Shown piece after piece: positions 11,013 to 16,942 of a DNA stretch of 64,000 nt. This DNA is from Salaquimonas sp. Its GTDB lineage: Bacteria; Pseudomonadota; Alphaproteobacteria; Rhizobiales; Rhizobiaceae. A program made the translations under genes and the position numbers. The notes beneath the pieces are model-generated. The model searched no databases and was not told the origin of the DNA. It saw only the letters and a list, made by a program, of their open reading frames with translations. Numbering within the stretch: the first letter of the stretch is position 1; each line of letters starts with the position of its first letter. The DNA is taken from NCBI GenBank assembly GCA_028289365.1, contig JANQQM010000011.1:1-64000 (forward strand), in the 5' to 3' direction.

Positions 11013-12336
11013 GCCCGATATGACAATTACGGCAGCCGATACGTCATCTGGTATTGATGCAGCGCGATCTCCGGCCTTACGCACAACAAGGCCCTTTTCC
11101 GCCTTTGAGCGGATGATCGCGGGTAGATACCTCCGTGCGCGGCGCAAGGAAGCGTTTATATCTGTCATCGCCGGATTTTCTTTCATCGGTATCATGCTCG
11201 GCGTTGCAACGCTGATTATCGTGATGGCGGTCATGAACGGATTTCGCGCCGAATTGCTCGATCGCATTCTCGGCCTCAATGGTCATATGGTTGTCCAACC
11301 AATCGATTTTGACTTGACCGATTACGATGAGGTCTCAAAGCGAATTGGTGCGGTTGATGGCGTCAGCCTCTCAGTGCCGCTGATTGAACAGCCGGCCTTG
11401 GTTTCCGGGGTCGGAGCTGGAACCGGCGCAATTGTCCGCGGTATTCGACATGCCGAGCTGGAGCAGGTCAATTCCATCTCGGACAATGTGCTTGAAGGGA
11501 CGCTGGACAACTTCGATACTGCAGAGGGTGTCGCAATCGGGGACGGGCTCGCCCGCAAGCTTGGCCTGCGTATTGGGGATCAGCTGACGGTTATATCACC
11601 GGATGGCGACATCACCCCCTTTGGCACGACGCCGAGGGTTAAGACGTATCCGCTCAACGCGATCTTCAAGATTGGCATGAGTGAATATGATTCCACCTTT
11701 GTATTCATGCCCTTGAGTGAGGCGCAGCTATTTTTCAATTCGGAAAACAAGGTGGGCGTGATCGAGATTTTCCTCGACGACCCGGACGCCGTTCCTGTGC
11801 TGAAAGACAAGGTGGCAGATGCTACTGCACGACCGCACTTCATCGTGGATTGGCGTCAGCGCAACCAGTCCTTCTTTCTTGCCCTGGAAGTCGAACGCAA
11901 TGTCATGTTCATGATCCTAACGCTGATCATCCTGGTTGCGGCGTTGAACATCATTTCCGGTTTGACAATGCTGGTGAAGGACAAGGGCAGGGATATAGCG
12001 ATCCTGCGGACCATGGGCGCCTCCCGCGGGGCAATCATGCGAATATTCATGATTACCGGTTCGGCAATTGGGGTAACCGGCACTGCTGCGGGCGTCCTGA
12101 TTGGCGTTTTGATTTGCACATATATTACTGAAATTCAGCAATTTATCGATCGAATTACCGGCGGGCAGGTATGGGATCCAACAGTTCGGTTCCTGTCGGA
12201 TATTCCTGCACAGATGGATGTTATGGAGACACTTGCAGTTGTTGTCATGGCACTGGGATTGTCGTTTCTTGCAACCTTGTTCCCGGCATGGCGCGCGGCA
12301 AGACTCGATCCGGTCGAGGCACTGAGATATGAATGA
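11002..12336 (+). CDS. lolC: Lipoprotein-releasing ABC transporter permease LolC/LolE family (ATG at 11020 alternative)
   Basis: [51 protein letters not shown]; FtsX-type C-terminal TM region; precedes lolD. Confidence 0.94.
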
Positions 12337-13027
12337 CGAACCGGATAATGTGATCCTCAAGCTCTCCCATGTGCGCCGGGTCTATAGCGAGGGCGAGCGC
12401 GACCTCGTCGTATTGGAGAGTTGCGATTTCAGTTTGAAGCGCGGCGAGCTTGTTGCCCTGGTGGCGCCATCGGGAACCGGCAAGTCCACGCTCTTGCATC
12501 TGGCCGGCCTGTTGGAGAAACCTGATTCAGGGGAGGTGCATGTAAGTGGCCTGGCCACGAGAGGTATGCCGGACATCAAGCGCACCGCTCTGCGGCGGGA
12601 CGAAATTGGTTTTGTCTATCAGTTTCACCATTTGCTGCCGGAATTCACGGCAACGGAAAATCTCGTCCTGCCGCAAATGATACGTGGCATATCCAAGAGC
12701 GAAGCCAAAAAGCGGGCAGGGGAGCTGCTGGAGTTCATGCGAATTTCCGAGCGCGGCGAACATCGTCCGGCTGAACTCTCCGGCGGGGAACAACAACGCG
12801 TGGCTATTGCGCGGGCGGTAGCAAATGCGCCCAATATACTGCTGGCTGACGAGCCGACAGGAAACCTCGACCCCGACACGTCGTTGCATGTGTTCCATGC
12901 GCTGGAAACGCTTGTACGGTCTGCCGGACTGGCTGCACTGCTGGCGACTCATAACCACGACCTTGCCAGACGGGCGGATCGCTGCGTCACCTTGGATCAT
13001 GGCCGCGTTGTAGCGCTAGACCTTTAG
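12329..13027 (+). CDS. lolD: Lipoprotein-releasing system ATP-binding protein LolD
   Basis: Walker [21 protein letters not shown], signature [14 protein letters not shown], Walker [14 protein letters not shown]. Confidence 0.96.
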
Positions 13028-13052: not shown

Positions 13053-13081
13053 TTGACAGAATAACAAATAGAACATAAAAA
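13053..13081 (+). promoter_or_regulatory. Predicted housekeeping promoter, -35 TTGACA / -10 TAAAAA (17-nt spacer)
   Basis: TTGACA at 13053-13058, TAAAAA at 13076-13081; about 48 nt upstream of the small ORF. Confidence 0.55.
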
Positions 13082-13096
13082 GAACAAATAAGGAAC
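13071..13096 (+). promoter_or_regulatory. Predicted tandem LexA/SOS operator, GAAC-N7-GAAC-N7-GAAC
   Basis: GAACATAAAAAGAACAAATAAGGAAC: half-sites at 13071, 13082, 13093 (11-bp period) overlapping the predicted -10; matches the alphaproteobacterial LexA direct-repeat motif (GTTC-N7-GTTC / GAAC-N7-GAAC). Confidence 0.75.
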
Positions 13097-13128
13097 AATA
13101 ACTGAATAATTATAGAAAGAGGTGGGAA

Positions 13129-13227
13129 ATGTTCGTTTCATTGCGTGATGTGGCATCCTTGGCAACCATGGGAATTTTTCTGACCAGCCTGTTCATGTGG
13201 GCAGATATTCTTAGAACAATAAGCTAG
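13129..13227 (+). CDS. 32-aa single-TM micro-protein, candidate SOS-induced (SidA-like)
   Basis: MFVSLRDVASLATMGIFLTSLFMWADILRTIS; RBS-like AGAGGTGGG just before ATG; LexA-box promoter upstream; below the ORF-track length cut-off. Confidence 0.65.
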   Translation: MFVSLRDVASLATMGIFLTSLFMWADILRTIS

Positions 13228-13360
13228 TTGGTTCATTGGAAATCCACCAAAAAACGAATTTCTCGTTGAGCAATGATGCGGGTATTTGGGGATAATCCGA
13301 CAAAGGTGTCGAGAACCTATTCTAACGCCGCTTGATAACGTCTCTTGTGATGCGCACAAT

Positions 13361-13408: not shown

Positions 13409-16400
13409 GTGAAAACAAACTCAGACCTTATTGAGAATGATCTGCCGGTTGATGGTTCCGGGCCTGGGTTTGTTCATCTTCATGTTCATTCAGCCTATTC
13501 GCTGCTTGAAGGGGCATTGCCGCTGGCAAGATTGCTGGATCTCGCGGTGGCCGACGATCAGCCCGCTCTGGCAATCACCGATCGCAACAACCTGTTCGGC
13601 GCCCTGGAGTTTTCACAGAAAGCCGCCTCCAAGGGAATTCAACCGATCATGGGTACCAAGCTCGCGATCGATTTTGCCGATGGTGGAGACATCAAATCCC
13701 GTTCCGGTGTGGCGGAGATGGGCTATCTGGTTTTGTTGGCGATGGACGATACCGGTTATTCAAATCTGACCAAGCTGGCCAGTCAAGCTCATCTGGGCCA
13801 TCAGAGATCTGATGAAGAAGCCGGAACCATCTCGGCAAACGGACCACATATAACCGTAGCTGACCTGGCTGAACTCAACCAGGGTCTAATAGTGTTGAGC
13901 GGCGGCGTGGAAGGCCCGATCAACCTACCTGCTGCACTCGGTAACGAAGCTGTAGCGTCCAGCAGGATTGAGGCGCTGGCGAAGATCTTTGGTGATCGGC
14001 TTTACATCGAGATCCAGCGCCATTCGGGGACTGATCCGCAAGCCAGAGCAGAGGATTTTCTGGTATCCTCCGCCTATAATCTTAGTCTCCCCTTGGTTGC
14101 CACCAATCAACCCTACTTTGCCGAGCAGTCCGACTTTGCTGCCCATGATGCCTTGATTGCGATCGCTGAAGGTGTAGTGGTCGAAGCGGATAACCGCAGA
14201 CGCCTGACGGCTGATCACTATTTCAAGACCAGGGCCGAAATGGCGGTATTGTTTGCCGACCTGCCGGAAGCCCTTGAGAATACGGTCGAGATCGCAAGAC
14301 GCTGTCACTTCCGTGCGCTTACCCATGATCCGATCTTGCCACGATTCACCGGGGAAACCGGTGATCCGGATGCAGCTCTTGCTGCCGAGGCGGCTGAACT
14401 TTCACGCCAAGCGAGAGAAGGGCTTACCGAACGACTGAAAGTCTTCGGCATGGCAGCAGGATATGAGGAATCCGATTATGAAGCGAGATTGGAGCTGGAA
14501 CTCTCGATTATTTCCCAGATGGGTTTTCCGGGATATTTCCTGATTGTTGCCGACTTTATCAAATGGGCCAAGGCACGCGACATTCCGGTCGGGCCGGGCA
14601 GGGGATCAGGCGCTGGCTCGCTGGTCGCGTGGTCGTTGACCATTACCGATATCGATCCGATGCTGTTTTCCTTGCTGTTTGAGCGGTTCCTCAATCCCGA
14701 ACGAGTCTCAATGCCGGATTTTGACATCGATTTCTGTCAGGATCGGCGCGATGAGGTCATCCGCTACGTCCAGGAGAAATATGGTCGCGAGCAGGTCGCT
14801 CAGATCATCACTTTCGGAACCTTGCAGGCGCGTGCGGTGCTTCGGGACGTCGGCCGGGTATTGCAGATGCCCTACGGTCAGGTCGACAGGCTGGCCAAGC
14901 AGGTGCCGTCCAACCCCGCCAATCCGGTTACCCTGAAACAGGCAATTGACGACGAACCGCGCCTTCAGGAAGCAGCCCGCGACGAAGACGTTGTCCAGCG
15001 CCTGTTTGACATTTCCACCCGGTTGGAAGGGTTGTACCGGCATGCCTCAACCCATGCTGCCGGAATTGTGATTGGCGACCGGCCGCTACAGCAACTCGTA
15101 CCGCTTTATCGTGACCCCCGTTCGGAAATGCCGGTCACGCAATATTCGATGAAATGGGCTGAAGCCGCAGGCCTGGTAAAGTTTGACTTTCTCGGCCTGA
15201 AAACGCTGACGGTACTTGATAGGGCCGTCAAGTTCGTTGCCGAGCGCAATATCGAGGTAGACCTGGCGACGCTGCCGCTGGACGATGCCGGCACCTATGA
15301 GATGTTGACCCGCGGCGAGACTGTGGGCGTGTTCCAGTTGGAAAGCATGGGCATGCGCAAGGCACTGATCGGCATGAAACCCGATCGCTTTGAAGACATC
15401 ATTGCGCTCGTTGCGCTGTACCGGCCCGGGCCCATGGACAATATTCCAGTCTATAACGCCCGCAAGAATGGTGAGGAGCAGCCGGAATACATCCATGAGA
15501 AGATCCGGCCTGTCCTCGAAGAGACCTATGGGGTCATCATCTACCAGGAACAGGTGATGCAGATTGCGCAGATACTTTCGGGATATTCGCTTGGAGAAGC
15601 CGATCTGTTGCGTCGGGCAATGGGCAAGAAAATTCGCGAGGAAATGGACCAGCAACGCACCCGATTTGTCGATGGTGCGGTAGACCAGGGCCTTTCAAAG
15701 TCGAAAGCAAATGAGATTTTTGATTTGCTGGCGAAATTTGCCGATTACGGGTTCAACAAATCGCATGCGGCTGCCTATGCACTCGTTTCCTACCAGACGG
15801 CTTACGTCAAATCCGAATATCCGGTAGAGTTCCTTGCGGCTTCCATGGAACTGGATATCGGCAATACCGACAAGCTCTCGGTTTTCCGGCTGGAAGCCGA
15901 AAATCTCGGGATTGAGGTCGTGCCACCCTCTGTCCAGACCTCGCAGGTCGGATTCTCGGTTTCGGATGGCAAGATCTACTACGCGCTGGCCGCGATCAAG
16001 GGTGTTGGTGAAGGCGCTGTGCGCCAAATTGTGCAGGACCGGGAGAGCAACGGACCCTATGCCGATTTGACCGATTTCTTCACCCGGATTGATATTCGGC
16101 ATGCCAACAAACGGACACTGGAAAATCTGATTGCGGCCGGTGCCTTGGATTGTTTCGGAGCGCGCCGCGAGCAGTTGATGGCGGGCCTTGATCGTCTTAC
16201 AGGGCATGCAAGCCGTACGGCTCAGGACCGCGATAGTGGACAGAATGACATGTTTTCCGGAAGCGGTTCGGTTCCGGCAATCGTGTTGCCGAATGCCGAA
16301 AGCTGGGCGCCTACAGAACGCTTGAATCGTGAGTTTCAGGCAATCGGATTTTATTTGTCTGCCCATCCGTTGGATGAATATCGCGACGTCATGGAACGCA

Positions 16401-16942
16401 TGCGGGTACAACGCTTTTCGGAGTTTGAAACCTCGGTCAGGGGCGGGGCGACTGCGGGCAGGCTTGCCGGCACTGTAACATCCCGCCAGGAACGGCGGAC
16501 CCGAACCGGCAAGCGCATGGGAATCGTACAATTCTCTGACCCCTCTGGCCAATTCGAAGCCGTCATTTTCGAGGAGGGCCTGGCTCAATTTCGTGATATG
16601 TTGGAAGCCGGAAATTCTGTCGTTGTTCTTGCCGGTGCTGAAATGCGCCCGGAGGGCATTGGCATCCGAATTCAGAGCGTGGATTCGCTGGAAGAACATG
16701 GCAATCGGGAAAGGCGCAATCTGCGCATTTTCCTGCGAGATCAAGAACCCGTTTCGCATCTGACGCCCTTATTGAAACCGGCCCCTTCAAATCGGGATGA
16801 CGGTCGGGTCAGCTTGGTCGTCGTGCAGGATAATGGTGCCCGTGAAATCGAGGTCGAATTGAAGAGCCGGTATGATATCAATTCAAAGATCAAAAGCGCG
16901 ATTAAGGCTGTTCCCGGAATCGTTGATGTCGAATTGGTTTGA
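13409..16942 (+). CDS. dnaE: DNA polymerase III subunit alpha (GTG start)
   Basis: 1177 aa; PHP domain FVHLHVHSAYSLLEG, GPGRGSGAGSLVAW, MPDFDIDFCQDRRDEVI, C-terminal OB domain. Confidence 0.97.
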   Translation: MKTNSDLIENDLPVDGSGPGFVHLHVHSAYSLLEGALPLARLLDLAVADDQPALAITDRNNLFGALEFSQKAASKGIQPIMGTKLAIDFADGGDIKSRSGVAEMGYLVLLAMDDTGYSNLTKLASQAHLGHQRSDEEAGTISANGPHITVADLAELNQGLIVLSGGVEGPINLPAALGNEAVASSRIEALAKIFGDRLYIEIQRHSGTDPQARAEDFLVSSAYNLSLPLVATNQPYFAEQSDFAAHDALIAIAEGVVVEADNRRRLTADHYFKTRAEMAVLFADLPEALENTVEIARRCHFRALTHDPILPRFTGETGDPDAALAAEAAELSRQAREGLTERLKVFGMAAGYEESDYEARLELELSIISQMGFPGYFLIVADFIKWAKARDIPVGPGRGSGAGSLVAWSLTITDIDPMLFSLLFERFLNPERVSMPDFDIDFCQDRRDEVIRYVQEKYGREQVAQIITFGTLQARAVLRDVGRVLQMPYGQVDRLAKQVPSNPANPVTLKQAIDDEPRLQEAARDEDVVQRLFDISTRLEGLYRHASTHAAGIVIGDRPLQQLVPLYRDPRSEMPVTQYSMKWAEAAGLVKFDFLGLKTLTVLDRAVKFVAERNIEVDLATLPLDDAGTYEMLTRGETVGVFQLESMGMRKALIGMKPDRFEDIIALVALYRPGPMDNIPVYNARKNGEEQPEYIHEKIRPVLEETYGVIIYQEQVMQIAQILSGYSLGEADLLRRAMGKKIREEMDQQRTRFVDGAVDQGLSKSKANEIFDLLAKFADYGFNKSHAAAYALVSYQTAYVKSEYPVEFLAASMELDIGNTDKLSVFRLEAENLGIEVVPPSVQTSQVGFSVSDGKIYYALAAIKGVGEGAVRQIVQDRESNGPYADLTDFFTRIDIRHANKRTLENLIAAGALDCFGARREQLMAGLDRLTGHASRTAQDRDSGQNDMFSGSGSVPAIVLPNAESWAPTERLNREFQAIGFYLSAHPLDEYRDVMERMRVQRFSEFETSVRGGATAGRLAGTVTSRQERRTRTGKRMGIVQFSDPSGQFEAVIFEEGLAQFRDMLEAGNSVVVLAGAEMRPEGIGIRIQSVDSLEEHGNRERRNLRIFLRDQEPVSHLTPLLKPAPSNRDDGRVSLVVVQDNGAREIEVELKSRYDINSKIKSAIKAVPGIVDVELV

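Follow-up and report, generated by a model that had tools for sequence, protein, structure and literature searches.

A SidA-like micropeptide gene behind a tandem LexA-type operator upstream of dnaE in Salaquimonas and its relatives

Among the small membrane proteins that stop division after DNA damage, the closest described relative of the gene considered here is SidA of Caulobacter crescentus (Modell et al. 2011, 2014). SidA is an inner-membrane protein of 29 aa (PMC4211646) with the locus tag CCNA_02004 (PMC11034885). Caulobacter also has DidA, which is likewise a small, DNA-damage-induced division inhibitor with a single transmembrane (TM) helix and acts on FtsW/FtsI/FtsN, but which is 71 aa long, is induced independently of SOS (through DriD), and binds FtsN (PMC4211646); no link to it in sequence or position was noticed. 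The resemblance to YneA of Bacillus, SosA of Staphylococcus, and ChiZ of Mycobacterium is one of function only, as these are SOS- or damage-induced membrane division inhibitors, of which YneA binds FtsW (PMC13396833). All three are longer, have extracytoplasmic parts, and belong to other phyla. A different kind of likeness is offered by TisB and DinQ of E. coli. TisB is a LexA-controlled single-TM micropeptide, as is DinQ, but both act on membrane potential and are controlled by antisense RNA, and scans of Pfam and NCBIfam revealed no homology between such peptides and the gene described below.

The stretch of Salaquimonas sp. DNA analyzed here, a 64-kb window, carries the gene order lolC/E-lolD-gap-dnaE, all on the forward strand, with the LolC/E permease and DnaE confirmed by NCBIfam. 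The first-pass annotation had placed in the gap between lolD and dnaE an unlisted 32-codon ATG ORF with a ribosome-binding sequence, under a promoter whose TTGACA -35 hexamer is followed by GAAC-N7-GAAC-N7-GAAC lying over the -10. Both the ORF and this promoter arrangement are present as described (Table 1). The ORF is intact and translates as MFVSLRDVASLATMGIFLTSLFMWADILRTIS, and its leader reads GAAAGAGGTGGGAA-ATG. A weak sigma-70-like site, TTGATA-17-CACAAT, lies between the micro-ORF and dnaE at 13332-13360 and is possibly dnaE's own promoter; chance alone would produce one site of this kind.

Table 1. Features of the lolD-dnaE interval and its flanking genes, in window coordinates.
Feature	Coordinates	Strand	Basis
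lolD, upstream neighbor, usual but not invariable partner	12329..13027	+	NCBIfam best hit, below model cut-off
-35 hexamer TTGACA	13053..13058	+	Sequence; TTGAC or near match at same spot before most homologues' boxes
Two overlapping LexA-type operators of the alphaproteobacterial kind, from three GAAC half-sites at N7 spacing	13071..13096	+	Motif; boxes kept before homologues
Proposed -10 hexamer TAAAAA, 4/6, inside operator	13076..13081	+	Sequence and inference from 17-nt spacing
Ribosome-binding sequence AGAGGTGGG	13118..13126	+	Sequence; GGAG-type sequence precedes most homologues
Micropeptide gene, SidA-like, 32 aa, single TM; coordinates include the stop codon	13129..13227	+	Sequence, homologues, pN/pS, profiles, AlphaFold2
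dnaE, DNA polymerase III alpha, downstream neighbor, usual but not invariable partner	13409..16942	+	NCBIfam

Comparison with related genomes indicates that the micro-ORF is a real gene whose peptide is under purifying selection. Homologues with intact frames and without stops occur in five other genomes belonging to the genus or family (56-75% identity), and a further genome has a homologue at 53-55%. In the window's group pN/pS is 0.33, with 212/112/389 differences at the first, second, and third codon positions, and across the seven groups tested it ranges from 0.08 to 0.41. Furthermore, when the near homologues are left out of the profile, the window ORF comes first among 825 small ORFs in the window (E = 1.4e-7; second-ranked match, 0.35). 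The first-pass annotation had made its reading depend on conservation of the frame and of the LexA boxes in relatives; the frame is thus kept, and LexA-type boxes are likewise conserved before the homologues. Neither Pfam nor NCBIfam recognizes the micro-ORF at their cut-offs. AlphaFold2 models the peptide as a single helix spanning residues 2-31 (pLDDT 94), as is expected for any sequence of this kind. One match (L009), which has no box and lies outside the lolD/dnaE place, was discarded as a chance match. One genome holds a second family match (G034:C1065, L031; L245) on a 429-base contig, which is either a paralogue or an assembly duplicate.

The three half-sites begin at 13071, 13082, and 13093, and so form two overlapping GAAC-N7-GAAC operators. 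A single GAAC-N7-GAAC pair is unremarkable in the window (four found, 2.3 expected) and was discarded as stand-alone evidence. The triple, in contrast, occurs once in the entire 4.75-Mb genome, and not at all on the other strand. The -10 hexamer is weak (TAAAAA), and the promoter is absent from the list of a simple sigma-70 scan. In the same genome the GAAC-N7-GAAC motif is also found about 125 nt before the start of lexA and upstream of recA, where the offset is inexact because the flank of the recA locus is shorter than assumed. The lexA gene itself (G000:C20:92455) lies outside the window but on its contig, about 79 kb away from the micro-ORF; Caulobacter lexA (CC1902) and dnaE (CC1926) are likewise near each other (PMC1839093). 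Tandem operators of three half-sites also precede the homologues at seven other loci (L017, L326, L331, L342, L357, L365, and L374). Judged from the motif, this recurrence suggests a tighter or cooperative control of the micro-ORF promoter by LexA.

A possible relationship to SidA had been raised from the outset, without a claim of homology, and comparison with C. crescentus SidA and its neighborhood now lends it support. A 29-31-aa ORF adjoins dnaE in the named Caulobacteraceae genomes. A homologous 29-aa ORF is present in all 41 Caulobacter-genus genomes searched and lies upstream of dnaE (CC1926 in Caulobacter; PMC1839093) wherever this was checked. The NCBIfam SidA model, NF033228, scores the Caulobacter ORF at 72.7 bits (cut-off 35) and the Brevundimonas ORF at 20.5 bits. 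On the other side of the ORF, the Caulobacter genomes that were read have a divergent gene that we read as a nucleoside hydrolase (DTDTAGDD start), and CCNA_02005, which adjoins sidA, is a nucleoside hydrolase (PMC3667746). Since NF033228 recognizes the Caulobacter ORF, its length is 29 aa, and its neighbor is a nucleoside hydrolase, the dnaE-upstream ORF of Caulobacter is identified as sidA itself; the identification was made through NF033228 and the neighbor CCNA_02005.

Profiles link the window's group to this gene in both directions. A profile of 60 micro-ORFs, all from the window's order and none from Caulobacterales, with five loci (L225, L243, L248, L254, and L259) left out by eye as not family-like, was run against 2131 small ORFs. 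Its top 15 matches are all dnaE-upstream, comprising Caulobacteraceae ORFs and three ORFs of distant families (L061, L062, and L083), with E values from 3e-5 to 0.13 and the next match at 1.3. The reverse profile, built from Caulobacteraceae, places 17-18 family members in the top 20 of 1586 ORFs; it is weaker (E 0.01 to 0.4) and does not list the window ORF itself. Alignment of the two groups by hhalign gives 94%, with a score of 30.3, whereas none of 200 column shuffles exceeds 18.5, and both groups share the core R-[DE]-x-x-A-[LF]-x-S-x-x-x-F. Directly aligned, the window ORF and SidA are 17% identical, which is too low to argue from alone, and NF033228 gives no hit to the window ORF at E<=10, so that the curated cut-off of 35 bits is not reached. 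Homology to SidA is shown through the family profile and position, not through direct comparison. Under the NCBI naming rule the window ORF is not 'SidA', and its sequence places it as a divergent member of a homologous family.

The likenesses and differences can be set out in full. The window ORF shares with SidA the features of the broad family: profile homology, LexA-type boxes in front (recognized by motif only), a place directly upstream of dnaE, a length of about 30 aa, one predicted TM helix, and the common core. It differs from SidA in being 32 rather than 29 aa long, in falling below detection by the SidA equivalog model, and in having lolD as its neighbor in place of the nucleoside hydrolase. 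It differs also in its C-terminal half, which reads W24-[AS]-[DE]-IL in the window's group (W24-A-D-IL in the window ORF itself) against WMM-x-x-VA in SidA. Taken on this evidence, the window ORF is supported as a positional, regulatory, and sequence counterpart of SidA.

The same unit is found widely in the window's order. In the 720 nt ahead of dnaE in 70 genomes of the order, an exact GAAC-N7-GAAC box occurs in 48; the corresponding figures are 8 for the reverse strand and 0.78 (mean) for dinucleotide shuffles. A box followed by a TM micro-ORF occurs in 46 (reverse strand, 1; mean in shuffles, 0.07), a count that includes a few ORFs not family-like by eye and depends on author-chosen and hence rough cut-offs (24-60 aa, hydropathy > 1.3, start <= 170 nt from the box). 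By the same strict test, box and TM micro-ORF are found in 41/69 genomes of the window's family (reverse strand, 0), and several more are one mismatch short. The layout recurs with little change as TTGAC - GAACAAAA-x-x-x-GAACAT - GGAG - ATG. Its partners do vary. In one genome (G036) the box-ORF unit remains behind lolD with dnaE on a different contig and no box before dnaE. In another (G035) the gene downstream of the micro-ORF is not dnaE, and at two further loci (L003 and L005) dnaE is downstream but the upstream gene is not lolD and reads, by our own inspection of the sequence, as CBS-domain-like. Because the partners vary in these four cases, the box-ORF unit is not merely a promoter of dnaE or lolD.

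Four small genomes of 1.5-2.0 Mb (G010, G585, G661, and G697; L346, L364, L368, and L254) have no box with a family-like micro-ORF before dnaE, and the gene may have been lost with genome reduction. Beyond the order the distribution is patchier, as among the class-level genomes sampled a box and micro-ORF before dnaE were found only in a few distant families (L061, L062, L083, and L272). A class-wide profile search with a small first alignment returned mostly chance matches to TM helices of long proteins; synteny at dnaE worked better for finding family members.

It is highly likely, in our judgment, that the window gene is the SidA of this lineage, a LexA-controlled membrane peptide that holds the septal FtsW complex inactive. 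In the undamaged cell, LexA would occupy the operator of three GAAC half-sites, covering the -10 and start region, and keep the gene off. Upon DNA damage, RecA-stimulated cleavage of LexA would free the promoter, and the short leader with its good ribosome-binding sequence would yield the 32-aa peptide, which would insert into the inner membrane as one helix. There it would bind the septal peptidoglycan synthase complex, most likely at FtsW, so that FtsW/FtsI/FtsN are held inactive and division waits until repair is complete. For the window's lineage we infer LexA binding, SOS induction, and membrane insertion, while the FtsW target and the division arrest would carry over by analogy from Caulobacter SidA (PMC4211646). 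The ftsW changes that suppress SidA in Caulobacter are A31K, F145L, and A246T (PMC4211646), and a low-confidence prediction in a 2026 paper places SidA against TM7 of FtsW (PMC13396833). All three residues (A31, F145, and A246) are retained in FtsW of the window's genome. This retention fits FtsW as the target, but weakly, because FtsW is broadly conserved anyway.

As the C-terminal half differs from that of SidA, the contact with FtsW could differ as well. A peptide of the same ancestry might even have changed its target, for example to another protein of the divisome or to one of polar growth (elongation), given that many Hyphomicrobiales grow from the pole and that the window's group, the Caulobacteraceae, and the 28-aa forms in the window's family differ from one another in the C-terminal half. 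We regard such a change as unlikely, though it is the strongest of the alternatives, since both the R-[DE] core and the FtsW positions important for SidA are kept.

The SidA-like reading must also be weighed against a TisB/DinQ-like alternative, in which SOS induction yields a membrane-active peptide that would lower the membrane potential and slow growth with no contact to the divisome. Its size, single TM helix, and LexA control would fit equally well (DinQ: PMC3567139). The window ORF is, however, homologous to SidA by profile and position, and its residues 6-7 are a conserved polar R-[DE], as in SidA. Moreover, the leaders of TisB/DinQ toxins are long and antisense-regulated, whereas the leader here measures no more than about 40 nt and leaves the ribosome-binding sequence open. 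Pfam and NCBIfam give no match of the window ORF to a type I toxin family of this kind, and in Rfam the region yielded nothing beyond a chance match to a snoRNA (19.5 bits; gathering score, 60), although antisense transcripts may nonetheless exist. Taken together, these points make a TisB/DinQ-like peptide very improbable. Hardly credible is that the boxes serve to induce dnaE with the ORF as a leader peptide or by-product, for although dnaE follows some 180 nt further along the same strand and is nearby in most genomes, the unit persists in G036 and G035 apart from dnaE, the peptide sequence itself is under purifying selection, and a separate, if weak, promoter-like site stands nearer dnaE. 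Read-through induction of dnaE may still occur as a side effect of SOS expression from the SidA-like promoter.

The kind of gene is already known; what is new is the breadth of its distribution and the synteny rule that finds it. Our literature search, conducted largely outside subscription journals, found no report of SidA beyond the Caulobacteraceae, and the discovery paper may list homologues; nor did the literature searched name an SOS division inhibitor in alphaproteobacteria other than Caulobacter. The SidA model NF033228 reaches no further than Caulobacter and its closest kin, and current annotation probably understates by far how widespread the SidA-type checkpoint is. On balance, we lean toward SidA as an ancestral alphaproteobacterial checkpoint, in which an SOS micropeptide became fixed beside dnaE before the Caulobacterales, the Hyphomicrobiales, and some other lineages parted. 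It would have been kept in most rhizobial-type bacteria; several small genomes lack it at dnaE, and the divergence of its C-terminal half may reflect lineage-specific contacts with the divisome. For annotators, a LexA box and a TM micro-ORF before dnaE provide a synteny rule for a class of gene that standard pipelines miss, and the more than 100 natural variants form an alignment for mapping the FtsW contact. Ultimately, an unannotated short gene that most genomes in the order of the window (Hyphomicrobiales/Rhizobiales) carry at the same position makes an SOS division stop in these bacteria testable gene by gene.
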